From NCBI RefSeq assembly GCF_023277115.1, contig NZ_JALQCS010000001.1:1296001-1360000 (forward strand): 64,000 bases of DNA, given 5' to 3'. The notes below the pieces were generated by a model, which was not told the origin of the DNA, did no database searches, and saw only the letters and a list, made by a program, of their open reading frames with translations. Below, piece by piece: positions 42,742-57,254 of the stretch (within the stretch, counting starts at the first letter, position 1; the number at the start of each line of letters is the position of its first letter). This stretch comes from Acidithiobacillus acidisediminis (lineage in GTDB: Bacteria > Pseudomonadota > Gammaproteobacteria > Acidithiobacillales > Acidithiobacillaceae). Position numbers and translations under genes: made by a program.

Positions 42742-43806
42742 ATGACCGATAATATTGCCTCGGAGCAGGCCCCAGGAAGCATGGATCGGGATGCCGCCCT
42801 GCGCTATCAGACAGCGAGTTTGCAGCGAGTTTCGCGTACTTTTGCCCTTACGATTCCGCAACTACCCCCGGGTTTGCGGGAAGCGGTGGGGAACGGCTAT
42901 CTACTCTGCCGTATCGCCGACACCATCGAAGACGATCCCCACCTGACTTGGGAGGCCAAGGCGCATTGGCAGCAGGTATTCCTGTCGGTTTTGCGCCAGG
43001 AAATCGCGCCAACGGATTTCGCAACCGGCTTCGCGGCGGTCATGGCGGCAGAAATGCCAGAGGGAGAACATGACCTGATTGCCCATAGCGCTGCGGTTGT
43101 CGCTCTGACGCACAGCTTCGATCCGGTGCAGCAGTCGGCCCTGATACGTTGTGTGCAGATCATGGGCGCGGGCATGGCAGAGTTTCAGCGGCGCGCCTCT
43201 CGGGCGGGATTGCGTGATCAGGCCGACATGGATCACTACTGCTACGTCGTCGCCGGTGTGGTTGGCGAAATGCTCACGGCCCTGTTCGTAAACCAGGAAC
43301 CTCGCATGTTGGCAGGTGGTGTGGATCTGCAGGCGCTCGCCGTGTCTTTTGGGCAGGGTCTGCAAATGACCAATATTCTCAAGGATCTCTGGACGGATTG
43401 GGAGCGGGGCGTGCTGTGGTTGCCCCAGGATCGCATCCGCGCCCATGGATTGGAGCCAGTGGATCTGCATCCGGGAATGAACCATCCAGGCTTTTCTGCC
43501 CTATTGGCCGAGATGTTGGCTTTGGCAGCCCGCCATTTGCGTAATGCCATGACCTTTACCTTGCAAATCCCGGCGGAGCAGGCCGGTATGCGGGATTTTT
43601 GCCTGTGGGCTATTGCCATGGCCGTGCTGACCTTGCGTCGTATCGCCGAAAATCCTGGCTTTCGCAGTGGTGAAGAGGTCAAGATCAGTCGCGACAGTGT
43701 GCGTAATGTGGTCTTGCTGTCCCGTCTGCTGCATCGTTTTGACCCCCTGCTGGACCTCGCTTTTCGAGTGGGTATCAAGCCGTTGCCGCGGGGTTCCCTA
43801 TGCTGA
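42742..43806 (+). CDS. Squalene synthase (trans-isoprenyl diphosphate synthase, head-to-head)
   Basis: The 354-residue product joins two farnesyl diphosphates. It has the eukaryote-like motifs YLLCRIADTIEDD (first Asp-rich site), MDHYCYVVAGVVGEMLT and QMTNILKDLWTDWERG (second Asp-rich site). This pattern fits single-enzyme squalene synthases such as that of Methylococcus rather than the HpnC/HpnD pair, and no hpnC or hpnE is present. It ends with a 7-base overlap with shc, giving the substrate source for the cyclase. The 68-base gap before it shows no clear promoter. HpnD remains the main alternative identity. Confidence 0.82.
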   Translation: MTDNIASEQAPGSMDRDAALRYQTASLQRVSRTFALTIPQLPPGLREAVGNGYLLCRIADTIEDDPHLTWEAKAHWQQVFLSVLRQEIAPTDFATGFAAVMAAEMPEGEHDLIAHSAAVVALTHSFDPVQQSALIRCVQIMGAGMAEFQRRASRAGLRDQADMDHYCYVVAGVVGEMLTALFVNQEPRMLAGGVDLQALAVSFGQGLQMTNILKDLWTDWERGVLWLPQDRIRAHGLEPVDLHPGMNHPGFSALLAEMLALAARHLRNAMTFTLQIPAEQAGMRDFCLWAIAMAVLTLRRIAENPGFRSGEEVKISRDSVRNVVLLSRLLHRFDPLLDLAFRVGIKPLPRGSLC

Positions 43807-45722
43807 TGCCGACAGCGCGCTATGCGTTGCCGACGTTTTCCCGCAGCGCACTGCAGCAGAGCATCGCGGCCGCACAACAGGCGCTACGGCAACATCAAGC
43901 GCAGGATGGGCATTGGTGCTTTGAGTTTGAAGCCGATTGTACGATCCCGGCGGAATACATCCTGATGATGCACTACATGGATGATCGGGATGCCGATCTG
44001 CAGGCCAAGATTGCGGTGTATTTGCGTCGCCATCAGGGCGATCATGGCGGCTGGCCCCTGTATCATGGTGGTCAATTCGATATGAGTGCATCCGTAAAGG
44101 CCTATTATGCCCTCAAGCTCGCGGGCGATGCGCCGGAGGCGTCGCATATGCAGCGTGCCCGAGCCGCAATTCTGGCGCATGGCGGTGCGGAGCGGGCAAA
44201 TGTCTTTACCCGGATCACCCTGGCCCTGTTTCGTCAGGTACCTTGGCGCGCGGTTCCCTTCATTCCCGTGGAAATCATGTTTCTCCCGCGCTGGTTTCCC
44301 ATGCACATCGATAAGGTGGCGTCCTGGTCGCGCACGGTCATGGTCCCGCTGTTCATCTTGTGCAGTCGGAAAGCGCAGGCGAAAAACCCCACCGGCGTGG
44401 GTATACCGGAGTTGTTTCGGCAGGCACCAGACGAAATTCATGACTACTTTGTTTGTGCTCGCAAGGGCATCGTGGCGCGGACATTTCTCGCGTTGGATCG
44501 CTTGGGGCGAACACTGGAACCCCTCATTCCCGCCTGGATTCGCAATCGTGCGATTCGCCGTGCCGAGGCTTGGTTTATTGCCCGTTTGAATGGCGTGCAT
44601 GGTATCAACGGGATCTTTCCGGCCATGGTCAATGCGCATGAAGCCTTGGCCTTGCTCGGTTATCCCAAGGAGCATCCCTATCGTCAGCAGACTCGCCAGG
44701 CATTGCAAAATCTCCTGGTCGAGCGCGCGCAGGAGGCCTACTGTCAGCCCTGCGTTTCGCCCGTCTGGGACACCTGCTGGGGCCTGCGTGCGCTACTCGA
44801 GATTGCGCCCGAGCCGGAGGAGGATGCCCTGGCGGCCATGCATTGGCTCTTGCAGCGACAAATTACGGATGCTCCAGGAGACTGGCAACACCTTCGTCCG
44901 CATCTGCGCGGTGGCGGCTGGGCCTTTCAGTACGAAAATTCGTATTACCCCGATTTGGATGACACTGCCGCGGTGGCTTGGACTCTGCATCGGGCCGGAC
45001 GGCCAGAGGATCGCCCCGCCTTGGAGCGAGCGGCGGATTGGCTGGTTGGAATGCAGTCCCGCAATGGTGGCTTTGGCGCCTATGATGTCGACAATACCCA
45101 TTATTACCTGAACGAAATCCCGTTTGCTGATCACAAGGCCCTGCTCGACCCACCCACGGCGGATGTGAGTGGCCGGGTCCTGACCTTTCTTGCGGCTCTG
45201 AATCGTCCGCAGGATCGCCCGGCGATCGATCGCCTGGTCAAATATCTACTCGATCAGCAAGAATCCAATGGTTCCTGGTTTGGGCGCTGGGGAAGCAATT
45301 ACATTTATGGGACCTGGTCGGTATTGATTGCCTTTGCGGAACTTGGAGATCCGACCGTGCGGCCGGCGATGGAACGGGCTGCCGCTTGGTTGCGCGCGGT
45401 GCAGCAGGAGGACGGTGGTTGGGGCGAAAGTAATGACTCCTACCTGGATCCTGGCCTTGCTGGTCAAGGGCAGCCTGCGACCGCCGCGCACACGGCTTGG
45501 GCGTGTCTGGCCCTGATGGCTGCGGGAGACCGTGACACTGACGCCCTGCGGCGCGGAATCGCCTGGCTCCAGGAGCATCAGGCAGCCGATGGCGAATGGC
45601 ACGATCCATGGTTCAATGCTCCAGGGTTTCCGCGCGTGTTCTATATCACCTACCACGGTTACAAACTATATTTTCCCTTATGGGCGCTCAGCCAGTATCA
45701 GAATCTCCAGGCCCGCGCTTAG
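43800..45722 (+). CDS. shc: Squalene-hopene cyclase
   Basis: Cyclises squalene to hopene and hopanol at the inner membrane. The 640-residue protein carries the catalytic DxDD motif as DLDD (385-388) in YYPDLDDTAAV and several QW repeats (HQGDHGGWPLY, MQSRNGGFGAY, QQEDGGWGES, QESNGSWFGRWG). NEIPFADHKALLDPPT is diagnostic. The start overlaps the squalene synthase stop and the end overlaps hpnG, so synthesis is coupled. Length equals that of well-known bacterial cyclases. Confidence 0.96.
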   Translation: MLMPTARYALPTFSRSALQQSIAAAQQALRQHQAQDGHWCFEFEADCTIPAEYILMMHYMDDRDADLQAKIAVYLRRHQGDHGGWPLYHGGQFDMSASVKAYYALKLAGDAPEASHMQRARAAILAHGGAERANVFTRITLALFRQVPWRAVPFIPVEIMFLPRWFPMHIDKVASWSRTVMVPLFILCSRKAQAKNPTGVGIPELFRQAPDEIHDYFVCARKGIVARTFLALDRLGRTLEPLIPAWIRNRAIRRAEAWFIARLNGVHGINGIFPAMVNAHEALALLGYPKEHPYRQQTRQALQNLLVERAQEAYCQPCVSPVWDTCWGLRALLEIAPEPEEDALAAMHWLLQRQITDAPGDWQHLRPHLRGGGWAFQYENSYYPDLDDTAAVAWTLHRAGRPEDRPALERAADWLVGMQSRNGGFGAYDVDNTHYYLNEIPFADHKALLDPPTADVSGRVLTFLAALNRPQDRPAIDRLVKYLLDQQESNGSWFGRWGSNYIYGTWSVLIAFAELGDPTVRPAMERAAAWLRAVQQEDGGWGESNDSYLDPGLAGQGQPATAAHTAWACLALMAAGDRDTDALRRGIAWLQEHQAADGEWHDPWFNAPGFPRVFYITYHGYKLYFPLWALSQYQNLQARA

Positions 45723-46408
45723 GTCTGGTCGTGGCCCTGGCGGCGGAGGCCAAGGCCCTCGGCGTAGCTACGCTATGCCCGGAATCGGTGCACGATTATG
45801 GTCGCGACGATCTTCTGGTGGTCTCTGGGATGGGCGCTGATGCTGCACGCCGCGCGGGCCAGACGCTCCTGACGGCGGGCGCCGAAGCCTTGGTCAGCGT
45901 TGGTACAGCTGGGGCACTGCAGCCTGATCTACAGCCAGGGGATCTCTGTATCCCGGAGCAGATCCTTTGGCAGAGCCAGAATTTTCCCACAGCCCCGGTC
46001 TTGGTTGAGTCATTTCAGCGGCGTTTTCCCACAGCCAGGGCTGGGGCTCTACTTTCCCTCCCCCAGGTTTTGTCTGACCCCCAGGAAAAGGCGAAATATG
46101 CCGAGCAGGCGTTGGCTGTCGATATGGAAAGTGGCGTCCTCGCCGCTTTGGCTGCGCAGCAGGGGGTACCGGTTTTGGCGTTGCGGGTCGTCATCGATAC
46201 CCACGATACTCGTCTTCCGGACGCGGTGCGCTACGGTGTGGATGCCTATGGGCGCCCGCAGCCGCTGCGGTTTTTGCGCTATCTGCTGCGACGCCCGCAA
46301 GATCTGCCCCAACTCTTGCGCCTAGGTCAGCAAATGCAGAAGGCGCAAGCGACGCTGCGACAGTTGCGGAGGGCAATACAGATGGAAGAGTGTGCATGCG
46401 CGCGCTGA
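45680..46408 (+). CDS. hpnG: Hopanoid-associated phosphorylase HpnG
   Basis: A 242-residue nucleoside phosphorylase-like enzyme that removes adenine from adenosylhopane, giving a ribosyl-hopane. Visible family elements are GLVVALAAEAKAL at the start, VSGMGADAA, LVSVGTAGALQPDLQPGDL and the AVDMESGVLAALAAQQGVP catalytic segment. The ATG at 45680 lies inside the shc end, a 43-base overlap; hpnA starts within its own last codons. Order shc-hpnG-hpnA is as in other hopanoid producers. Confidence 0.9.
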   Translation: MGAQPVSESPGPRLGLVVALAAEAKALGVATLCPESVHDYGRDDLLVVSGMGADAARRAGQTLLTAGAEALVSVGTAGALQPDLQPGDLCIPEQILWQSQNFPTAPVLVESFQRRFPTARAGALLSLPQVLSDPQEKAKYAEQALAVDMESGVLAALAAQQGVPVLALRVVIDTHDTRLPDAVRYGVDAYGRPQPLRFLRYLLRRPQDLPQLLRLGQQMQKAQATLRQLRRAIQMEECACAR

Positions 46409-47388
46409 TCACCGGCGCTTCGGGTTTCGTCGGCGCGGCGGTGCTGCGGCGGCTGGTGCTGGAGGGCGTGCCAGTGCGCGTCTTGGCCCGACCGGGTGCG
46501 GATGATGCGGCGTGGAAAGACCTGCCGGATATTGAAGTGGTAGAAGGAGATCTCTGCGATCCCGCTAGCTTGGAGCGCGCAGTGCTGGGCTGCCGTTGGG
46601 TCTTTCATGTGGCCGCCGATTACCGCCTGTGGGTTCCAGATCCGGAAATAATGTACCGCGCCAATGTCGATGGCAGCGAAACGCTGCTGCGGGCGGCGTT
46701 GGTGGCAGGTGTCGAGCGTATCGTATATACCAGCAGTGTGGCGGTGCTCGGCTTGCGTAGCGATGGGCAGCCGAGTACGGAAGAAACTCCCTCGTCCATC
46801 GATGATATGATTGGACATTACAAACGCTCCAAATTCCTCGCCGAGGAACGCGTGCGGGTCCTATGTCGCGAGCAGGGGGCGCCGATTGTCATCGTCAATC
46901 CGTCCACACCCATCGGCCCCGCTGATCGCAAACCGACCCCTACCGGACGCATGGTATTGGAGGCTGCGGCGGGACGTATGCCGGCCTATGTCGATACGGG
47001 CCTGAATGTCGTACATGTGGATGATGTCGCCATGGGGCATTGGCTGGCCCTGCAATATGGAAAACCTGGAGAGCGATACATCCTCGGTGGTGACAATCTC
47101 TCCCTGCGCGCCATCCTGACGCGGATCAGCGGGTTGACGGGGCGACCTTCGCCCCGCTTTCGGGTACCGCGACGCTTACTCTACCCCATTGCCTGGGTCT
47201 CAGAGGCTTGGGTGCGCTGGCGTGGCAGCGGTCTTCCGCTGGTGAGCGTCGACGAATTACGGATGGCCGCGCATCATATGTATTTCGACTCCCGCAAGGC
47301 GGAACAAGAACTCGGCTATACCCATCGACCCGCCGAAGAGGCCTTGCGCGATGCGGTCGCTTGGTTTGCTGAACATCACTACTTCTGA
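46396..47388 (+). CDS. hpnA: Hopanoid-associated sugar epimerase HpnA
   Basis: An extended short-chain dehydrogenase of 330 residues: NAD site TGASGFVGAAV, VFHVAADYRLWVPD, YTSSVAVLG, active-site tyrosine and lysine in HYKRSKFLAEE, and VNPSTPIGPADRKPTPTGR. The reaction is not established; HpnA is named for its constant presence in hopanoid clusters and is likely to act on the ribose-derived side chain or sugar. GGAAG precedes the ATG at 46396. Confidence 0.9.
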   Translation: MRALITGASGFVGAAVLRRLVLEGVPVRVLARPGADDAAWKDLPDIEVVEGDLCDPASLERAVLGCRWVFHVAADYRLWVPDPEIMYRANVDGSETLLRAALVAGVERIVYTSSVAVLGLRSDGQPSTEETPSSIDDMIGHYKRSKFLAEERVRVLCREQGAPIVIVNPSTPIGPADRKPTPTGRMVLEAAAGRMPAYVDTGLNVVHVDDVAMGHWLALQYGKPGERYILGGDNLSLRAILTRISGLTGRPSPRFRVPRRLLYPIAWVSEAWVRWRGSGLPLVSVDELRMAAHHMYFDSRKAEQELGYTHRPAEEALRDAVAWFAEHHYF

Positions 47389-48520
47389 CGTGGTGATCGC
47401 CTGGATCTTTGCATTTCTGGCGCTTCTGTCCTGTCTGTACTGGGGGCTCGCCTGGTTGCGCATCGCGCGTTGGCGGCCGCGATTGCCCGAGTTCGCGCCG
47501 GGGGAGCCCGTGACCTGCGCTGCGGGAATCAGTGTGCTCAAGCCTCTACACGGTGTAGAGCCGCAGCTGCCAGAGAATTTGCGCAGCTTCATCGCGCAAC
47601 ACTATTCTCCGTTTGAATTGCTCTGCGGGGTCCAGGACGCGCAAGATCCCGTTCTGCCCTTGCTGGAACCGTTGCAGGGACAGAACGGTCTGCGTATTGT
47701 GCGTCATACGGTTCAGCTGGGTAGTAATCCGAAAGTCAATAACCTGGCAGGGATCTATCCGCACGCGCGCTACCCGATTCTGGTGTTGGCGGATGCGGAT
47801 ATTCGCGTCGGTCCAGACTATCTTGCGCAACTCGCGCAAGAACTGGATCGCCCCGGAGTTGGGCTAAGCAGTTGCCTCTATCGGGCGCGGACACTCCCCG
47901 GGCTGTGGTCGCAAGTGCTGGGGGTGCAGATTCAGGAGCATTTCCTACCTTCGGTGTTGGCGGCAGCAGCGCTTGGCCCCAATCTCTACTGTGGTGGCGC
48001 CACCATCGCTCTGCGCCGGGATGTGTTCGAGCGCTGTGGCGGATTTGCCGCGCTGGCGGATGAATTGGCTGACGATTACGCCATTGGCGCCCATGTCCGG
48101 GCCCTCGGTTACCGTAGCATCGTTAGTGATGTGCTGGTCGAAACACTGGTGGCGGAGGACAGTTTTCGCAGTTTTTACGCCCACGCCTTACGCTGGGCGC
48201 GGACCACCCGGGCCGTGCAACCCTGGGGGCATGCCTTCTCCTTTCTGACCTACCCGTTACCCCTGGTCCTGATCGCCGCATTATGCTGGCAAGGTTGGGC
48301 TTTTGCTCCCCTGGTGCTGGTCCTAGCCTTGCGCCTCGTGTACCATTGGCAGATTGGACGAAAATTGCACTCGCCTCTAATGGTGCTGGCGGTTGGTCTG
48401 GCTGATTTCCTCGGGCTATCGATTTGGGCACATGCGCAAATTGCCGGGAAGGTCCACTGGCGTGGGCGCAATTTTTCCATCGATGCCCATGGGCAAATGC
48501 ATGACGGAGTAGAGCGATGA
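47351..48520 (+). CDS. hpnI: Hopanoid glycosyltransferase HpnI
   Basis: A GT2-type membrane glycosyltransferase of 389 residues with one N-terminal helix (12-33) and two to three at the C-terminus. Motifs: ISVLKPLHGVEPQL, LVLADADIRVGPDYL (DxD-type site), YCGGATIALRR and the acceptor motif HALRWARTTR (QxxRW-like). In Burkholderia, HpnI adds N-acetylglucosamine to bacteriohopanetetrol. The ATG at 47351 lies inside hpnA; a GTG at 47390 right after the hpnA stop is an alternative. Coupled to hpnJ by a 4-base overlap. Confidence 0.9.
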   Translation: MRSLGLLNITTSDVVIAWIFAFLALLSCLYWGLAWLRIARWRPRLPEFAPGEPVTCAAGISVLKPLHGVEPQLPENLRSFIAQHYSPFELLCGVQDAQDPVLPLLEPLQGQNGLRIVRHTVQLGSNPKVNNLAGIYPHARYPILVLADADIRVGPDYLAQLAQELDRPGVGLSSCLYRARTLPGLWSQVLGVQIQEHFLPSVLAAAALGPNLYCGGATIALRRDVFERCGGFAALADELADDYAIGAHVRALGYRSIVSDVLVETLVAEDSFRSFYAHALRWARTTRAVQPWGHAFSFLTYPLPLVLIAALCWQGWAFAPLVLVLALRLVYHWQIGRKLHSPLMVLAVGLADFLGLSIWAHAQIAGKVHWRGRNFSIDAHGQMHDGVER

Positions 48521-49944
48521 CGATGAAAACCTTGTTCCTGCAGGCCCCTTCCTTTGAGGGTTTTGATGGCGGGGCCGGCTCTCGCTACCAGGCCAAGCGC
48601 GAAATTCGCTCTTTCTGGTTTCCGACCTGGCTAGCGCAGCCAGCGGCCATGATCCCGGGCAGTCGCCTGCTTGATGCGCCGCCCGCAGACATCACCGTAG
48701 AGGAAACGCTACGGGTGGCAGCGAGCTACGAGTTGTGCATCATCCATACCAGTACGCCCTCGTTTCCCTCCGATGTGCGCATGGCAGAAATGCTCAAGGC
48801 CCATTATCCAAAGATGCTGATTGGCCTGGTTGGGGCGAAAGTCGCCGTGGAGCCGGAGGAATCCTTGCAGGCTTCCCCTGCCATCGATTTCGTGGCGCGA
48901 GAAGAATTTGATTACACCCTGAAAGAGATTGCCGAAGGCCGGCCCTTTGCCGAGGTAGATGGCATCAACTATCGCGATGCCAACGGTCTGCTGGTGCGCA
49001 CGCCAGATCGCGCCATGATCGAAGATATGGATGCCTTACCGTTTGTCTCCGAGGTCTACAAGCGGGACTTACATATCGAGGATTATTTCATTGGCTATCT
49101 GAAACACCCGTACATTTCTTTCTATACCGGCCGTGGTTGTCGTTCCCAGTGTACATTCTGCCTCTGGCCGCAGACCGTAGGAGGCCACCGCTACCGGACT
49201 CGCAGCGCGGCCAGTGTCATCGAAGAGGTGAAATACATTCAGAAAGCCTTCCCGCAAGTACAGGAAGTCTTCTTTGACGATGACACTTTCACTGATGATC
49301 GCCCGCGTGCCGAAGAGATTGCCCGCGGCCTGGGCAAGCTGGGAGTGACTTGGTCCTGCAATGCCAAGGCCAATGTACCCTATGAAACCCTCAAGGTGCT
49401 GCGCGACAACGGTCTGCGCCTTTTGCTCGTTGGCTATGAGTCGGGCAATCAGCAGATTCTCAACAATATCAAGAAGGGTCTGAAGGTCGAGGCGGCGCGC
49501 AAATTTACCGCTGATTGCCACAAGCTTGGCATTGCCATTCATGGCACCTTTATTCTCGGTCTGCCTGGTGAGACGAAAGAGACTATTCAGCAAACCATTA
49601 ATTTTGCTAAAGAAATCAATCCACACACCATTCAGGTATCTCTTGCTGCGCCGTATCCTGGCACCTATTTGTACAATCAGGCGAAGGAGCAGGGCTGGCT
49701 CACGGAAGAGGATGAGGCGCATCTGGTGAATGATCGTGGTGTGCAGATCAGTCCGATGAGCTACCCGCATCTCAATCACACAGAGATTTTTGATTCCGTT
49801 GAGGTGATGTACAAGAAATTCTACTTTCGTGCGGGTAAGATTGCCGAGATCACCGGTGAGATGCTGCGCAGTTCGCAGATGATGAAGCGTCGTCTGCGTG
49901 AGGGGGTGGAGTTTGTACGCTTTCTGCGGCAGCGTCATGGTTAA
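48517..49944 (+). CDS. hpnJ: Hopanoid radical SAM protein HpnJ
   Basis: A B12-binding-domain radical SAM enzyme of 475 residues. The N-terminal half is the B12-type domain (SYELCIIHTSTPSFPSDV, GLVGAKVAVEPEE); the radical SAM cluster ligands are C208, C212 and C215 in GRGCRSQCTFC. HpnJ is known to contract the glucosamine ring of hopanoids to the cyclitol ether. It lies between hpnI and hpnK, the three enzymes needed for that head group. Start ATG overlaps the hpnI stop. Confidence 0.93.
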   Translation: MTMKTLFLQAPSFEGFDGGAGSRYQAKREIRSFWFPTWLAQPAAMIPGSRLLDAPPADITVEETLRVAASYELCIIHTSTPSFPSDVRMAEMLKAHYPKMLIGLVGAKVAVEPEESLQASPAIDFVAREEFDYTLKEIAEGRPFAEVDGINYRDANGLLVRTPDRAMIEDMDALPFVSEVYKRDLHIEDYFIGYLKHPYISFYTGRGCRSQCTFCLWPQTVGGHRYRTRSAASVIEEVKYIQKAFPQVQEVFFDDDTFTDDRPRAEEIARGLGKLGVTWSCNAKANVPYETLKVLRDNGLRLLLVGYESGNQQILNNIKKGLKVEAARKFTADCHKLGIAIHGTFILGLPGETKETIQQTINFAKEINPHTIQVSLAAPYPGTYLYNQAKEQGWLTEEDEAHLVNDRGVQISPMSYPHLNHTEIFDSVEVMYKKFYFRAGKIAEITGEMLRSSQMMKRRLREGVEFVRFLRQRHG

Positions 49945-49946
49945 GT

Positions 49947-50816
49947 GTGGCGGGCGAACGCAGAATCATTTTCAATGCTGATGATTTTGGGCTGGACCCG
50001 GCGGTAAATGCCGCGGTCGTCTCAGCCCATCGGCGAGGAATCCTCAATAGCGCAAGCCTGATGGTGTCTGCCACCGCAGCAGCGGAGGCGATCACCTTGG
50101 CGCGTAAATTGCCAGAACTTGGAGTGGGTTTGCATTTAACCCTGGTGGATGGTGTTCCCATATTGCCTGCGGCCCAGGTCCCCGACCTCGTGGACGGGCA
50201 TGGGCGTTTCGCAGCTGACCTCTGGAAACGGGGGTTCCGCTATTTTTTTCTGCCCCGGGTGCGGCGTCAGCTCGCAGCAGAAATTTCCGCCCAGTATGCT
50301 GCCTTTGCCGATTCTGGTCTGTCCCTCGATCATGTCAACGCCCATAAACATCTCCATGCGCATCCGACGGTGCTGCGCTTGCTCATCGAGATCGGCAAGC
50401 GGTTTTCCTTGCGCGCTGTGCGTGTCCCCCGTGAGCCCCTGGGTCTGGCACGGCAGCTGGCGCCGGTCAGCGCTGGAACAGCTTTGGGCGCGCGTCTCCT
50501 CTCGACCTGGGCAGGGGGTATGCGCCGCGTGATCCGTGCGCATGGCCTCCTGTGCAATGATCTCCTGCTTGGTCTGCAATCTACCGGGCAGATGGACGTC
50601 CGGCGCGTTCGCCGCGCCTTGGCCATTGCGCCCGCGGGACAATTGACGGAATTATATTTTCATCCTGCTGAAGAGCAGACTGCAGCTTTGCGCGAGCTCA
50701 TGCCGGATTATCGTCCCGTAGTAGAGTGGCAAGCGCTATGCGATTCCGCCCTCGTCGAGGAACTGTGCGCGCAGGGTATCCGTACCGGAAGCTATCGTGA
50801 TTTCGCCCGCGGCTGA
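49947..50816 (+). CDS. hpnK: Hopanoid deacetylase HpnK
   Basis: A YdjC-family carbohydrate deacetylase of 289 residues. The metal site is built from the two aspartates of FNADDFGLDP, GLHLTLVDG and the histidine-rich HVNAHKHLHAHP. HpnK removes the acetyl group from the N-acetylglucosaminyl hopanoid made by HpnI. GTG start directly after the hpnJ stop; its end overlaps hpnN by 20 bases. Confidence 0.92.
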   Translation: MAGERRIIFNADDFGLDPAVNAAVVSAHRRGILNSASLMVSATAAAEAITLARKLPELGVGLHLTLVDGVPILPAAQVPDLVDGHGRFAADLWKRGFRYFFLPRVRRQLAAEISAQYAAFADSGLSLDHVNAHKHLHAHPTVLRLLIEIGKRFSLRAVRVPREPLGLARQLAPVSAGTALGARLLSTWAGGMRRVIRAHGLLCNDLLLGLQSTGQMDVRRVRRALAIAPAGQLTELYFHPAEEQTAALRELMPDYRPVVEWQALCDSALVEELCAQGIRTGSYRDFARG

Positions 50817-53493
50817 GCGTTTTCTTGCCCGCATTGGCGAGCGCTATATGCGTAGCATTTGTCGGTTTATGTCGTTTTGCGTGCAGCACGCACACGCCAC
50901 ACTGGTTTTCTTTTCCCTGCTGCTCGTATTGGCAGTTGTCTATATCGCTGGCCATTTTGCGATGAATACCAACACCAGTGATGTGCTCTCCCGCGATCTG
51001 CCTTTTCAGCAGCGCGAAATTGCCTATAAAAAGGTATTTCCTCAGGATCGGGACAGCATTGTCGTCGTCCTGCAGGGGCAGAACGCCAGCGCTACGGGTA
51101 ATGCCGTCGATCGGTTGGAGACTTGGGTAAGGGCGCATCCGAAGTATTTTCATAGCGTCTACGTTCCCGGTGGTGGAAAATTTTTCCAGCAGAATGGGTT
51201 ACTCTATCTGCCGGTACAACAGGTGCATGAATTTGCGCAGCGAATCACCGCGGCGCAACCACTCATTGCCAGCCTCTCTGGTAATCCCAGTTTAGCGGGG
51301 TTGAGTGATCTGCTCAGCGAGGCCGTAGATCAACGTCTGCATGGTGGTGTGCAGGTGCAGGGGCTGACGCCTGTCTATAATGCCTTTACCCGGAGCATCG
51401 ATGCGCAGTTGGCTGGGCATCCAGAGGAGATCTCCTGGGCCAGTTTGATGGGTGGCAGTCTGGCGCATTTAGGGCCCGAGCAAAGATTTGTGCTCATCGA
51501 GCCCACCCTGAACTATCATAGTCTGCAACCTGCAGAGGCATCCATCCAGTTTTTGCACCGCGGTCTGGAGCAGTTGCATATTGATGCCGCGCATGGACTT
51601 TCCGTGGGAATTACTGGACAAGCGGTGCTAGATGCTGAGCAGCTCAAGACGGTCAGCGAAGGTGCTTTTACTTCTTTGGCGTTGACTCTGGGGTTGGAGA
51701 TTTTGCTCCTGATTATTGCCCTGCGTAGCCCCCGCTTGGTCATCGGGGTATTGGTGAATCTAATTGCCGGCATTATTTTGACGACGGCTTGGGCGTTACT
51801 CGTGATTGGGCCATTCAATCTCATTTCGGTTTCCTTTGCTATCCTGTTCATTGGTCTTGGGGTTGATTTTGGTATCCAATTCAGCCTGCGTTTTCGCGAA
51901 GAACTGTTTAATGGCGCCAGCCACGAGGAGGCGATGCGGCGTGTATCGCGAGGTCTGGGGGCGGCCCTGTCCTTGGCTGCCGTAGCGGCGGCGATCAGTT
52001 TTTTTGCATTCGTGCCGACCAGTTATGCGGGAATTGTCGACCTCGGTCTGGTTTCTGGCGCCAGTATGCTCATTGGCCTCCTGCTCACCATTACCTTGCT
52101 GCCTGCCTTTCTGACCACTTGGCCGCTTTCCGCCAAGGCCCGGCAGCGCGTTGATTTCCCTCATTTTCATCGGGTGCCTACCCTGGCGCGTTACCCCATC
52201 CATCGCTACGCCTGGGGCGTGCTGGTGCTCGTGGCCGCGCTTGCTATTGCGGCGGTGCCAGCGGCATTGCAGGTACGTTTTGATTTCAATCCCTTGCACA
52301 TGATCGATCAGCATGCCGAGGGCGTAAAAGTCTTCGAATCGTTACTGGCCAACCCCGACACGGCACCCTACCGCATTGAGGTGTTGGCAAAAAATCTCGA
52401 TCAGGCCAAGGAAATTGCCCGGCGCGTCAAACAGGTACCGACGGTGGCACGGGCGCTGACCATTGCCGACTATGTACCAACGGATCAGGCTCCCAAGCTC
52501 TCTATTTTGAACAACTTACAGATTCTGGTGCCACCCTTCTCTTTGCTCATGCCGGCGGCGTTGACGCCACCAGCAGCCAACACGGTGGAAAAATTACGGC
52601 AGTTACAGAAAAAGTTACAATCGTTGGCGGCCAAGGATCGTGGTGAAGAGGGGAGGGCTGCGGCGCGCCTCGCGCTGGCGCTGGGGCGGTTTTTACAGGC
52701 AGACGCGCAGAAGCCGCGGGCAATAGATGCGCTGCAGCATTCCCTCTTGGGCACCTTGCCCAGCGAGTTGAAACAACTTGGGGAAGCTTTGCTCGCCGCA
52801 CCAGTGACGATTAATTCCCTGCCAGGGGACTTACGTAGCCGCTACCTTGCCGCAGATGGTCAAGCGCGGGTCGAGGTCTTTCCCAAGGCGGATCTGACAA
52901 ACAATCAAAAGATGTTACATTTTGTCAGCTCGGTCCTGCAGGTGGAACCAACTGCGGTCGGCACCCCGGTCATGCTAGTCGAGGGCGGCGAAGCGGTGCT
53001 CGGGGCCTTTCAGGAAGCCACCTATATCGCGATTGCTGGTATCGCCCTGCTCCTGCTCTTATCGCTTCGGCGCTATCGTGATATGTTGCTGATCATATTG
53101 CCGTTATTGTTGGCAGCGCTGTTCACGGTAGCGGCGATGTCCCTCTTGGGGGTAAGTTTCAACCTGGGCAATATCATCGTCCTTCCGCTTCTCATTGGTC
53201 TCGGCGTAGCCTTCGGTATTTACATCGTCTTGCGCTGGCGCAGCGGAGTGGATGCTGCCCACTTGCTGCAGACCTCCACGCCGATGGCAGTTTTCTTTAG
53301 CGGGCTGACCACGTTGAGCGCCTTTGGTAGCATGGCGCTGTCCGTTGATCCGGGTATGGCCAGTTTGGGGGATGCGTTGAGTATCGCCTTGGCGATCGTG
53401 CTGCTCTGTATTCTCGTTGTGCTGCCTGCGCTTCTTCTGCTTTGTACCAATTCTCCTCATGAAGAAGGGATTGTTCAGGATGAAGGTAGCTGA
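50797..53493 (+). CDS. hpnN: Hopanoid RND exporter HpnN
   Basis: An 898-residue MMPL/RND transporter with two six-helix halves and large periplasmic loops after helix 1 (about 55-270) and helix 7. ILFIGLGVDFGIQFSLRFRE and LPLLIGLGVAFGIYIVLRW are the repeated helix-4 regions. HpnN homologues move hopanoids from inner to outer membrane. The GTG at 50797 fits HpnN N-termini (RFLARIGERYM); an ATG at residue 18 is the alternative. Overlaps hpnK before it and hpnL after it. Confidence 0.93.
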   Translation: MISPAAERFLARIGERYMRSICRFMSFCVQHAHATLVFFSLLLVLAVVYIAGHFAMNTNTSDVLSRDLPFQQREIAYKKVFPQDRDSIVVVLQGQNASATGNAVDRLETWVRAHPKYFHSVYVPGGGKFFQQNGLLYLPVQQVHEFAQRITAAQPLIASLSGNPSLAGLSDLLSEAVDQRLHGGVQVQGLTPVYNAFTRSIDAQLAGHPEEISWASLMGGSLAHLGPEQRFVLIEPTLNYHSLQPAEASIQFLHRGLEQLHIDAAHGLSVGITGQAVLDAEQLKTVSEGAFTSLALTLGLEILLLIIALRSPRLVIGVLVNLIAGIILTTAWALLVIGPFNLISVSFAILFIGLGVDFGIQFSLRFREELFNGASHEEAMRRVSRGLGAALSLAAVAAAISFFAFVPTSYAGIVDLGLVSGASMLIGLLLTITLLPAFLTTWPLSAKARQRVDFPHFHRVPTLARYPIHRYAWGVLVLVAALAIAAVPAALQVRFDFNPLHMIDQHAEGVKVFESLLANPDTAPYRIEVLAKNLDQAKEIARRVKQVPTVARALTIADYVPTDQAPKLSILNNLQILVPPFSLLMPAALTPPAANTVEKLRQLQKKLQSLAAKDRGEEGRAAARLALALGRFLQADAQKPRAIDALQHSLLGTLPSELKQLGEALLAAPVTINSLPGDLRSRYLAADGQARVEVFPKADLTNNQKMLHFVSSVLQVEPTAVGTPVMLVEGGEAVLGAFQEATYIAIAGIALLLLLSLRRYRDMLLIILPLLLAALFTVAAMSLLGVSFNLGNIIVLPLLIGLGVAFGIYIVLRWRSGVDAAHLLQTSTPMAVFFSGLTTLSAFGSMALSVDPGMASLGDALSIALAIVLLCILVVLPALLLLCTNSPHEEGIVQDEGS

Positions 53494-54523
53494 TTTCGCC
53501 GCCGCGGTGCGGCGGCAACTCGGGAGTGCGGTACTGCTCCTGGGTGGGCTGTTATTCATGGGCTATCTCATCTGGGATGAGGGTGCGGGAGGCATTTTCG
53601 CGATACTGCGTGATGGTTCCTGGCTATTGTTGATTCTTCTTCCAGTACATATGCTGGTCATTGCCCTGGATGCCACGAGCTGGCGCTGGATTTTGGCGGA
53701 CGTTCCCAAGCGACCAGCGTTGGCGCGACTGACCTGGTTGGCCCTGCTGCGGGAAGCCGTGAATGGACTCCTGCCCGTCGCCCGAGTGGGCGGCGAATTT
53801 GTCGGTATTCGCGGATTGGCGCAGATGGGGGTATCGCTCTACCAAGCGGCGGCTAGCGTCGTGGTCGAAGTGAGTCTGACGCTGTTGAGCCAGTTTTTCT
53901 TCACGCTGCTGGGTCTTGTACTCCTGTTGCATTGGGCAAGCGATGTCCATCTTCGCGATGCCGTGCTGTATGGATTGGCGCTAAGTTTACCGATACTGGC
54001 ACTGTTGTTCTGGTTGCAGGGTCGTGTCGGTCTTTTCCATCTGTTCCAAAGAATCCTGCGTCGACTGAGCGGGGGGCGGGATTGGATTGCGCTGCGTGGT
54101 GATCCACGGCAACTGGATGCGGAAATCGCCCGCCTATATCGCCGGCGCTGGGCCTTACTCTGGGCGAATTTTTGGCAATTGCTGGGCCTCTTTGCCGGTG
54201 CGGGAGAGTTGTGGCTGAGCTTTGTCTTTTTGCACCACTCGATTTCCGCGCCTGCGGCCCTTCTGCTGGAAAGCCTGGGGCAAGCGCTACGCAGTGCCGC
54301 ATTCTTTGTGCCGTCAGCGTTAGGCGTGCAGGAGGGTGGTTTTATGTTATTCGGGACAGTGCTGGGAATCGGCCCCGATCTGGCCTTGGCCTATTCCTTG
54401 CTCCGGCGCTTTCGTGAGCTGGCATTAGGTCTGCCGTTGTTGCTGTCCTGGTATTTGCTGGAAGGGCGACGCCTTCGTCAAAATTGGTCCAAAAAAGTAC
54501 TGGCTTGGGAGGAAACCGCATGA
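53480..54523 (+). CDS. hpnL: Hopanoid-associated membrane protein HpnL
   Basis: A 347-residue polytopic protein with about eight helices, of the lysylphosphatidylglycerol-synthase-like flippase family used in HpnL. Family features: [31 protein letters not shown] and the C-terminal [17 protein letters not shown]. The function of HpnL is unproven; lipid flipping is inferred from relatives. The ATG at 53480 overlaps hpnN by 14 bases and the stop overlaps the next start (ATGA). Confidence 0.87.
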
Positions 54524-55362
54524 GTGTTGTGGCGACTGAGATGGCAAGGCAAAGTCATCGAGAGCTATTCTGTCAATTTTTTCACGATACCCACGTGGAT
54601 TTCGATCCGAAGACTATCGACTGGCCGGACCTGGATGCGGCGGCCGAGCAGCGACTCAAATCTCTGCCGTTCTGGGGTGAGGCGGTGGCAACGGAAAGTG
54701 TCACGGCGCGCATGGTGCAGCACATGGCGGACACGGAAACCGATCCCTTGGTCAAGGCTGCAGTGGCCCTCGATGGCTACGAAGAGCGCCGCCACGCCGA
54801 GCTCTTGCAGGCCCTGGTCACGCACTATGGAATCGTGATTCCGCCGCTACCGGCGCCGCCGCCGATTCGGGACCCGCACTGGGAGTTTCTTTTTACTGGC
54901 TACGGCGAGTGCCTCGACTCCTATTTTGCGTTTGGTCTCTTTGCTGCAGCGCGAGATTCCGGATTTTTCCCTGAGGCCCTGGTGCAGATCTTCGATCCGA
55001 TCATGCAGGAAGAGGCGCGGCATATCATTTTCTTCGTCAATTGGTTGCATTGGTATCGCCAACAACTGCCGTGGTGGAAGAAGCTGCAGCTCGAATACCG
55101 ACGCTTGCAGGTGATCGCTTTGCAGGCCTGGGCACGGATCCAGACGGCGCGTGGCATGGGAGGGGAGGGGGAAGAAAACTTTACCATGACCGGTCATGAG
55201 CAGGTCAGCCAGGATATGAGTCTCACCAAATTGCTGGCACTGTGCAGAAGCGAAAATGAGCGTCGCTTTGCGCCTTACGACGCCCGATTACTACGCCCCA
55301 AGCTTGCCCCAAGAATTGCCAATTTCTTGTTTTTCTTTCTTTCTCGGAGAAAAACGGCGTAA
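54520..55362 (+). CDS. Ferritin-like di-iron protein in the hopanoid operon
   Basis: Not a named Hpn protein. The 280-residue product has the complete carboxylate-bridged di-iron signature: E59, E89-x-x-H92 (YEERRH), E130 (GYGECLD) and E165-x-x-H168 (QEEARH), on four predicted helices, as in ferritin-like oxygenases and oxidases. The C-terminus ends with a hydrophobic, then basic stretch ([13 protein letters not shown]) that could touch the membrane. It has a strong GGGAGG site and overlaps the hpnL stop by four bases, so it is made with the hopanoid enzymes. A hydroxylase, desaturase or oxidase acting on a hopanoid or its precursor is a reasonable hypothesis; a storage role is less likely given the length. 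Confidence 0.75.
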
Positions 55363-55373
55363 CCATTCTGCAT

Positions 55374-55404
55374 TTGGGTAACATACGCAGTGGTATGTTA
55401 TACT
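55374..55404 (+). promoter_or_regulatory. Palindromic promoter region of hpnH
   Basis: A perfect inverted repeat TAACATAC-gcagtg-GTATGTTA (55379-55400, 8-bp arms, 6-base spacer) runs directly into a -10 box TATACT (55399-55404). The best -35, TTGGGT (55374-55379), is weak and 19 bases away. An operator across a promoter implies control by a dimeric repressor or activator, separating hpnH-hpnM-mlaA from the upstream genes. Confidence 0.6.
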
Positions 55405-55463: not shown

Positions 55464-56567
55464 ATGGCAGTGCCACTGATACAAAGCTATCGGGTAGGTC
55501 GATATATCATCGGCCAAAAATTGCGCGGAAACCGCCGTTATCCTTTGGTGCTGATGCTCGAGCCACTTTTTCGCTGTAACTTGGCCTGCGCAGGTTGTGG
55601 AAAAATCGATTACCCTGATGAGGTTCTCGATAAACGCCTGTCGGTAGAAGAGTGTATTGGCGCTGCCGAGGAGTGCGGTGCGCCGATTGTCTCTATCGCA
55701 GGGGGTGAACCCCTGATTCACAAGGATATGCCAGAGATCGTTGCTGGGCTGATAGAGCGCAAGCGCTTCGTCTATCTGTGTACCAATGCGTTGCTCCTGA
55801 AAAAGCGTATGGGTGACTACCAACCTTCTCCCTATTTGACGTTCTCGGTGCATCTCGACGGGAATGAGCATCGTCATGATGATTCTGTCTGTCAGCCTGG
55901 CACCTACAAGCGCGCAGCAATGGCGATTCGTGAGGCGGTAGAAAATGGCTTTCGCGTCACCGTCAACTGCACCCTGTTTCAGGGGGAAGGTGCGGAAGAG
56001 GTGGCAGGTTTCCTTGATGATTGCAAGGCGATGGGTGTGGAAGGAGTGACGATCTCGCCGGGTTTCAACTATGAGCGGGCGCCGCAGCAAGAGGTGTTCA
56101 TCAAGCGCCAGGCGTCCCGCCAGCTCTTCCGTGACATTTTTCGCCTGGGCAAGGAGCGCAAGGCGAAATGGAAATTCAACCAGTCGAGTTTGTTTCTGGA
56201 TTTTCTGGCTGGTAACCAGACCTACCAATGCACGCCCTGGGGCAATCCCACGCGCAATATCTTTGGTTGGCAAAAACCTTGCTACCTGCTGGTGAGTGAG
56301 GGCTATGCACCAAGTTTTCGCGCTTTGATGGAGGAAACTCCCTGGGAACGCTATGGCGTGGGTAACAACAGCAAATGTGACCAGTGTCAGGTGCACTCTG
56401 GTTTTGAGCCAACAGCGGTGAACGATACCTTCGCTCACCCCCTCAAGGCGCTGAAGGTATCGCTCTTCGGGCCGAGAACGCGGGGGCCGATGGCTCCCGA
56501 CATGCCCGCAAGCCCTCCGGGTCCGGGCAGCGAGCGGCCGGTGTTCCCCTTGCGGGTGGAACGTTGA
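55464..56567 (+). CDS. hpnH: Adenosylhopane synthase HpnH (radical SAM)
   Basis: HpnH joins a 5'-deoxyadenosyl group to hopene, the first step of the extended side chain. The 367-residue protein has its cluster ligands C38, C42, C45 in FRCNLACAGCG, the family stretch SIAGGEPLIH, and SPGFNYERAPQQEVFI. A Pro-rich tail follows NDTFAHPLKAL. AGGAG lies 9 bases before the ATG. It has its own promoter element and is separated from the di-iron gene by 101 bases, unlike the overlapping genes before it. Confidence 0.95.
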   Translation: MAVPLIQSYRVGRYIIGQKLRGNRRYPLVLMLEPLFRCNLACAGCGKIDYPDEVLDKRLSVEECIGAAEECGAPIVSIAGGEPLIHKDMPEIVAGLIERKRFVYLCTNALLLKKRMGDYQPSPYLTFSVHLDGNEHRHDDSVCQPGTYKRAAMAIREAVENGFRVTVNCTLFQGEGAEEVAGFLDDCKAMGVEGVTISPGFNYERAPQQEVFIKRQASRQLFRDIFRLGKERKAKWKFNQSSLFLDFLAGNQTYQCTPWGNPTRNIFGWQKPCYLLVSEGYAPSFRALMEETPWERYGVGNNSKCDQCQVHSGFEPTAVNDTFAHPLKALKVSLFGPRTRGPMAPDMPASPPGPGSERPVFPLRVER

Positions 56568-56597: not shown

Positions 56598-57254
56598 ATG
56601 TCTTATAAGTCAAGGGTTTTGCTTCCGGTTCTCTCTCTCGCTTGCTTCTTTGCCATAAGTCCGATGGCATGGGCGGATTCCTCGCCCTCCAGTACAGTGA
56701 CGGCAGAGAGCAGTAGTGCTGAGACGACGATTCAAACTCTCGATCAGGCGATCTTGTCCACGATGCAGGCGGGAGAGAAGGCGGGCTACCAGGGGCGGTA
56801 CAAGATCATTGCACCGGTTCTGAACAAGACGTTTGATTTTCGCGGCATTGCGCAAATCGCTTTGGGTTCTGATTGGCCAAAGTTGAGCGCCGCACAGCAA
56901 AAGCAGTTTGTCAGCGTGCTGGCAGAATACACCGCCGCCACCTACGCTGGCCGCTTCGATAGTTACAATGGCGAGCATCTCGCTGTGATTCAAACACAGC
57001 AGCTACGCCCGGGTACGATGGGGGTTTTTACTACCCTTACCCTGAAGAATGGTCGGGTGCATCGTTTTGACTATCTTCTGACCCAAGACAAAGGGGCTGG
57101 ATGGCGCGTTATCAATGTGGTTGCTGATGGCGTCAGCGACCTGTCCATGAAACGCTCAGAATACACCCAGATGATCAAAAACAAGGGCTTCTCTGCACTG
57201 ATTGCGCATCTACAGCAACAAATTAACGACTACGCGACGGGCAAGAAATCGTGA
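56598..57254 (+). CDS. hpnM: Hopanoid-associated MlaC/Ttg2D-like periplasmic lipid carrier HpnM
   Basis: A 218-residue exported protein with a signal peptide (cleaved near PMAWA-D, residue 26) and the MlaC domain: FDFRGIAQIALGSDWPKLS, FVSVLAEYTAATYAGRFDSY and a final helix. MlaC proteins ferry lipids between the membranes; HpnM is the version found with hopanoid genes. AAGGAG precedes the ATG. The stop overlaps the mlaA start by four bases, so carrier and outer-membrane receptor are coupled. Confidence 0.88.
   Translation: MSYKSRVLLPVLSLACFFAISPMAWADSSPSSTVTAESSSAETTIQTLDQAILSTMQAGEKAGYQGRYKIIAPVLNKTFDFRGIAQIALGSDWPKLSAAQQKQFVSVLAEYTAATYAGRFDSYNGEHLAVIQTQQLRPGTMGVFTTLTLKNGRVHRFDYLLTQDKGAGWRVINVVADGVSDLSMKRSEYTQMIKNKGFSALIAHLQQQINDYATGKKS

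Follow-up and report, generated by a model that had tools for sequence, protein, structure and literature searches.

The hopanoid operon of Acidithiobacillus acidisediminis carries, between hpnL and hpnH, a gene encoding a ferritin-like protein (FLP), which raises the question of what such a protein could contribute to hopanoid synthesis. The analysis was centred on a stretch of 64,000 nucleotides (the window), in which the following features were located:

43800..45722, + strand: squalene-hopene cyclase (hpnF/shc), named from sequence reading, without a family scan
46390..47388, + strand: hpnA (above the NCBIfam cut-off)
47351..48520, + strand: hpnI (above the NCBIfam cut-off)
48517..49944, + strand: hpnJ (above the NCBIfam cut-off)
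49947..50816, + strand: hpnK (above the NCBIfam cut-off)
50797..53493, + strand: hpnN (above the NCBIfam cut-off)
53477..54523, + strand: hpnL (TIGR03476, above cut-off), with an ATGA overlap with FLP
54520..55362, + strand: FLP, subfamily A, ferritin-like protein of predicted di-iron type, 280 aa (E59, E89-H92, E130, E165-H168)
55380..55404, + strand: perfect inverted repeat AACATAC-N6-GTATGTT that continues into an extended -10-like TGTTATACT (sequence reading)
55464..56567, + strand: hpnH, adenosyl-hopene transferase (TIGR03470, above cut-off)
56598..57254, + strand: hpnM (above the NCBIfam cut-off)

The FLP frame is complete, encodes 280 residues and is followed by hpnH as the next gene downstream. 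An earlier note on this DNA had given the same coordinates and length, together with a four-base overlap with hpnL, and these were reproduced in the window: the FLP start codon (ATG, 54520) overlaps the TGA of hpnL (end at 54523) in an ATGA. This overlap was kept in seven of the eight loci compared (the window and L001-L007), the exception being L002. Of the 25 genomes in the family to which the window belongs, 22 carry FLP. The misses were G005 (61% complete), G011, in which the contig stops before the FLP point of the operon, and G024; a partial match in G039 (E 4e-4) was left out of the carriers. The gene had been described as uncharacterised. This held for its function, as no functional assignment was found, but the gene had already been drawn: the legend to Fig. 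6 of PMC8886135 gives the order 'sqs-hpnFGAIJKNL-ferritin-hpnHM' in Acidithiobacillaceae, and the portions of that paper's text consulted here name no function for 'ferritin'. Between FLP and hpnH, the AACATAC-N6-GTATGTT repeat is expected 0.05 times in the window, allowing up to 2 mismatches, and the pattern GGTATGTTATA[CG]T was found before hpnH in all seven loci L001-L007 and in G024. The element at 55380-55404 is probably a regulated, separate hpnH promoter, in which case the upstream unit would end with FLP.

The six putative metal ligands (E59, E89, H92, E130, E165 and H168) were all found where the earlier note had placed them. FLP contains only two ExxH motifs, ERRH at 89 and EARH at 165, and the spacing between the successive ligand elements is 30, 38 and 35 residues. 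All six ligands were unchanged in 81 of 81 sequences (the window protein and 80 homologues), with identity down to 32%, and Cys131, which adjoins E130, was likewise identical in all 81. The AlphaFold2 model, built from an 11-sequence alignment, was a ferritin-like bundle (pLDDT 84.1, pTM 0.84) with predicted helices at residues 52-72 (E59), 76-103 (E89, H92), 119-147 (E130) and 152-182 (E165, H168). The four bundle helices thus carry one E or ExxH element each, as in the ferritin-like di-iron superfamily, and about 100 further residues, mostly helical, were modelled at the C-terminal end. The motif is more than chance, because the six ligands are kept in every sequence and the four ligand elements fall on four successive helices. 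FLP is thus predicted to be a ferritin-like protein with a di-iron site. No transmembrane stretch was detected in it (highest 19-residue hydropathy 1.09).

Family searches placed FLP close to none of the established families. No NCBIfam family matched it at E <= 0.1, hence no TIGR or NF Hpn model did, in agreement with the earlier observation that no named Hpn family fits. The match to Pfam AurF (PF11583) reached 20.1 bits, under the gathering cut-off of 29.6, and that to Pfam Ferritin_2 was still weaker. AurF was the only Pfam family matching most of the FLP members (9 of 11 at E <= 0.01). In the window protein, this sub-threshold likeness to the AurF p-aminobenzoate N-oxygenase covers residues 12-99 only. 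Foldseek ranked ribonucleotide reductase R2 proteins first, but no match reached E <= 0.001. VIA-align gave Z values of 14.2-15.2 to R2 and R2lox proteins over 215-243 aligned residues among the 50 matches listed, a Z of about 15 being little above the values common for helical bundles. The ligand set of R2 is of the E/ExxH/E/ExxH type, and FLP shares both this set and the overall helical fold with R2 and R2lox. Nevertheless, identity to these proteins was 9-14% among the 50 matches listed, and the distance from ExxH to the following E is 38 residues in FLP and roughly 60 in R2 and R2lox. The R2-like ligand-binding oxidase is further characterised by a Tyr-Val cross-link and a Mn/Fe site; the NCBIfam R2lox model matched two of the 11 FLP members (best E 0.013) and did not match the window protein. 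Both ExxH motifs of MiaE-type tRNA hydroxylase were in register with those of FLP in a profile alignment (5ux1), but the match was non-significant (E 0.5) and no link to tRNA modification was seen in the loci read. No AurF or acyl-ACP desaturase structure was among the 50 fold-comparison matches listed.

The distribution of FLP across genomes ties it closely to hopanoids. The window squalene-hopene cyclase (SHC) served as the reference for cyclase comparisons. Among 398 Pseudomonadota genomes, FLP was found in 14 and HpnH in 49, and all 14 carriers were within the 49 (Fisher p 3e-14); counted by genus, HpnH was present in 12 of 12 carrier genera (p 4e-12). The test set beforehand, whether FLP orthologues are common in hopanoid-free genomes, thus did not refute a hopanoid role. 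The second draw, f62, is taken as Acetobacteraceae, because Kozakia baliensis DSM 14400 and Acidibrevibacterium fodinaquatile belong to it. Here, FLP was present in 60 and HpnH in 103 of 120 genomes, and 58 of the 60 FLP carriers had HpnH. The two carriers without an HpnH match (G488 and G460, assembled in 350 and 380 contigs, respectively) both have a squalene-hopene cyclase. The cyclase was also present in all three remote carriers, which are metagenome-assembled genomes (MAGs) from Elusimicrobiota (L009), Acidobacteriota (L010) and an unclassified member of Proteobacteria (L008); in L009 the cyclase adjoins HpnH and HpnA. Conversely, both genomes of the neighbouring family f2 were without cyclase and without FLP, HpnH was found in none of the 14 named control genomes, and the SHC model match in Bacillus subtilis fell below the cut-off. 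In a collection of plasmids and chromids, all 13 FLP records came from Burkholderia, Cupriavidus, Caballeronia or Paraburkholderia. The co-occurrence with hopanoid genes, which the earlier note had suggested testing, extends across phyla, with almost no exception in the genomes searched, and FLP is very probably dedicated to hopanoids.

In 396 Acidobacteriota genomes, FLP was found in one (G664), around which the draw had been centred, and up to three candidates were scored per genome, so FLP copies may be missed in this count. The draw gave 96 matching genomes, 58 of which matched HpnH at 50% identity or more along a stretch exceeding 300 residues; the remaining matches were weaker or partial HpnH-like ones, and the FLP part was matched in G664 alone, in two copies. 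These copies (L224 and L010) lie in separate hopanoid-gene neighbourhoods. No FLP was detected in 119 genomes of family f60, searched with the same query that matches in the phylum and f62 draws; f60 appears to be the family of Bradyrhizobium, and Afipia presumably belongs to it. Family f57 contained one FLP carrier, with the gene in a hopanoid cluster (G259), and one HpnH genome without FLP (G304).

Physical linkage was observed in several lineages outside Acidithiobacillaceae. FLP was found with hopanoid genes in L008, L010, L224 (the second copy in the L010 genome) and G259, and also in G175 (both copies), Massilia forsythiae (G330), Cupriavidus metallidurans CH34, G436 and G533. It adjoins HpnJ and HpnK in L010 and lies 9 kb from the cyclase in L224. 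The remaining carriers inspected, among them Burkholderia and acetic acid bacteria, showed no such link within the fetched stretch. For the 13 Pseudomonadota carriers other than the window, the counts were three linked, nine unlinked and one on a contig too short to tell; HpnA-like matches at 27% identity in L036 and L037 were left out of linkage. A natural loss was identified in the window's own family. In G024, the gene order from the cyclase to MlaA is preserved, except that hpnL and hpnH have no FLP between them; the gap (L163:9570-9635) contains no FLP remnant, and the promoter-like element of hpnH is still present. FLP is thus absent from an otherwise intact hpn operon, and 35 of the 49 HpnH genomes are without it. 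From sequence and structure prediction, the best explanation is that FLP is a dedicated accessory enzyme that modifies hopanoids.

The maximum-likelihood tree of 81 sequences separated two subfamilies with a support of 100/100, namely A (65 sequences, including the window gene) and B (16 sequences, with 32-36% identity to the window gene). Positions that distinguish A from B are S134A, F136L, L140A and Q163F. All 16 genomes with B in the tree also carry A. The two genes are adjacent, on the same strand and 44-257 bp apart in 14 f62 genomes, on separate contigs in G434, G472 and G517, and about 13 kb apart within one hopanoid cluster in G175. Apart from G175, B was seen in f62 alone, where 17 of the 60 carriers have it by score and 15 of these are represented in the tree; the two scored but not placed in the tree are those of G472 and G488. 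Subfamily A is duplicated in G504, G458 and G462. The second Acidobacteriota copy is assigned to neither A nor B.

FLP probably performs oxidative di-iron chemistry on a hopanoid. The reaction that we tentatively favour, as a serious possibility, is desaturation of the hopanoid rings. FLP would bind two irons, be reduced by a cellular donor and then activate O2, and it would take two hydrogens from the hopane skeleton at the membrane surface, leaving a ring double bond. Subfamily A, including the window gene, would most likely introduce a delta-6 double bond, and subfamily B, found only alongside A and mostly in tandem with it, a delta-11 one. In this more specific form, which we regard as doubtful but worth stating, FLP would represent a new class of soluble triterpenoid desaturases with a ferritin fold, and A and B together would account for the delta-6,11 hopanoids that acetic acid bacteria make. 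Acyl-ACP desaturases are soluble enzymes with a ferritin fold that take two hydrogens from fatty acids to form a double bond, so the proposed reaction type and the fold superfamily would be alike. However, they showed no sequence match to FLP, which would act on a polycyclic triterpenoid instead of an acyl chain.

Reports of unsaturated hopanoids go back to the 1980s (see the references in PMC12583986), and a 2025 survey of Alphaproteobacteria, in the sections consulted, states that the genes for unsaturated bacteriohopanepolyols (BHPs) are unknown (PMC12583986, section 4.1.2.7). Table 3 of that survey, which covers 54 species, puts the unsaturated share of BHPs at 49-82% for seven acetic acid bacteria; Afipia broomeae (43%) and Skermanella (37%) come next, and the remaining producers have 0-4%, most of them 0-1%. 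Among those with 0% are species related to Methylorubrum extorquens and Rhodopseudomonas palustris TIE-1, two makers of saturated hopanoids. Kozakia baliensis DSM 14400, which carries both A and B, is the sole FLP carrier matched by name to a strain of this table, with 56% unsaturated BHPs and 29% pentol and hexol. In Burkholderia cenocepacia K56-2, C5424 and J2315, bacteriohop-6-enetetrol and -pentol cyclitol ethers were annotated in the source consulted in part, with a putative double-bond position; we found FLP-A in another strain of this species. The gene and the unsaturation thus agree for Kozakia and, across strains, for B. cenocepacia. For Acidithiobacillus, the BHPs quoted from Jones 2012 in the available parts of PMC8886135 include no unsaturated form and no pentol, which would mean that unsaturated forms present in small amounts were overlooked or that FLP acts otherwise there. 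In PMC5462960, which surveys cultured Acidobacteria, the terms unsaturat*, desatur* and double bond are absent from the main text as far as it was available. Conversely, Afipia makes delta-6 hopanoids and its presumed family, f60, was without FLP in 119 genomes, which makes it probable that there is one further desaturase or more. The distribution evidence is a correlation across groups, mostly of genomes known by label only. The earlier note had offered the addition of oxygen or of a double bond, or aerobic processing of the side chain. The double bond best fits the distribution, but side-chain processing fits less well, with FLP not tied to hpnJ and pentols reported beyond the range of FLP.

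We regard it as rather unlikely that FLP performs another oxidative step on hopanoids, such as one leading to the 22S epimers or the 31-methyl hopanoids of acetic acid bacteria, or to an undescribed product. Table 3 of PMC12583986 gives a 22S fraction for six acetic acid bacteria only, an FLP-rich group, and Acidithiobacillaceae keep FLP with neither unsaturated nor pentol BHPs quoted in the parts of PMC8886135 consulted. However, likely 22S isomers are also reported in Nitrospirillum and, in small amounts, in Afipia, and the texts consulted in part do not report 22S forms for Burkholderia or Acidithiobacillus. A variant HpnH would be a simpler source of such isomers.

Hydroxylation of the side chain at C-31 or C-30, yielding bacteriohopanepentols and hexols, appears improbable as the function of FLP. 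The genes for these compounds are likewise stated to be unknown in the survey (PMC12583986, section 4.1.2.6, consulted in part), and the pentols and hexols of Kozakia and the pentol cyclitol ethers of B. cenocepacia would fit such an activity, as would the weak, non-significant likeness to MiaE, which hydroxylates a tRNA side chain. Since both Kozakia and Burkholderia also make pentols, their profiles do not separate a desaturase from a side-chain hydroxylase. If f57 represents sphingomonads, listed in Table 3 as saturated and frequently rich in pentols, its carrier G259 would fit hydroxylation better. Against this, the consulted sections of PMC12583986 describe pentols with 0-1% unsaturation in Sphingomonadales, Rhodopila and Nitrospirillum. 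Pentols were also reported in Acidobacteria strains (five in the section text and three in the abstract of PMC5462960, available in part), a phylum in which we found FLP in 1 of 396 genomes, and none is named for Acidithiobacillus in the parts of PMC8886135 consulted. Ring desaturation thus fits better than side-chain hydroxylation because of how FLP is distributed across groups, which is a correlation, and the pattern of A and B suits delta-6 and delta-11 double bonds.

A contribution of FLP to the cyclitol-ether branch, assisting HpnI, HpnK or HpnJ, is very improbable. In G259 and the Acidobacteriota MAG, FLP has HpnJ or HpnK as a neighbour, and HpnJ was present in 9 of 14 FLP carriers versus 9 of 35 other HpnH genomes (p 0.02), but it was absent from 5 of the 14 carriers, and an obligatory tie to this branch was rejected on that count. 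It is equally far-fetched that FLP is an iron-storage or peroxide-protective ferritin placed in the operon by chance, in spite of the published 'ferritin' label (PMC8886135, consulted in part) and the ferritin-like fold, as the distribution disfavours it (a general store would not be limited to genomes with hopanoid genes), the 50 fold-comparison matches listed were R2 or R2lox proteins, ferritins not being excluded thereby, and the matched region of the family is 265-286 residues long and adds further helices to the four-helix core.

Other candidates have been put forward for the unsaturation step that we propose for FLP, namely proteins of the 'sterol desaturase family' (HpnX; PMC12583986 and PMC6460317, each consulted in part). 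The alphaproteobacterial sterol-desaturase-family candidate sits outside hpn clusters (PMC12583986), and that of Methylovulum is described, in the portion of the source consulted, as an integral membrane protein with His motifs. FLP differs from them in having no transmembrane stretch and in lying within hpn clusters in several lineages. The fold and the metal motif of FLP are of known kinds. In the literature searched, which leaves most subscription journals outside, we found no paper assigning FLP a role in hopanoid chemistry and no published hopanoid desaturase gene. New here are that FLP is, across phyla, almost confined to genomes carrying hopanoid genes, that the family splits into A and B, that one genome has lost the gene naturally, and that FLP bears on the desaturase question. 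FLP is a concrete and conserved candidate for an unassigned hopanoid modification; a genome with natural gene loss is at hand, and the pattern of A and B paralogues gives a sharp prediction. If FLP were a desaturase class with A for delta-6 and B for delta-11, unsaturated hopanes would become a readable genetic trait and an O2-dependent biomarker. If the candidate is right, a hopanoid structure would also be tied to molecular oxygen, which is relevant to reading fossil hopanes.

The neighbourhood of FLP was also scanned, using ten selected proteins from nine FLP loci, and no partner common to unrelated carriers was found among them. The neighbours included an aminotransferase and a rubrerythrin/AurF-like protein in L009 and, elsewhere, an FMN reductase, an MFS transporter, an alanine dehydrogenase, a glycosyltransferase, a GMC oxidoreductase and one protein without a family, while a Clp protease lies beside FLP in two loci of one genus (L036 and L041). 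The rubrerythrin/AurF-like gene (L009:6847-7974) is directly upstream of FLP and touches its start. Its product is a second protein of di-iron type, with two ExxH motifs and a match to Pfam Rubrerythrin (E 5e-7), and is unmatched by the FLP profile. In L130, from G460, a TAG was flagged inside the FLP match. The locus reads as an open frame of 306 aa that holds the 276-residue match, so the TAG apparently ends the gene and does not interrupt it.
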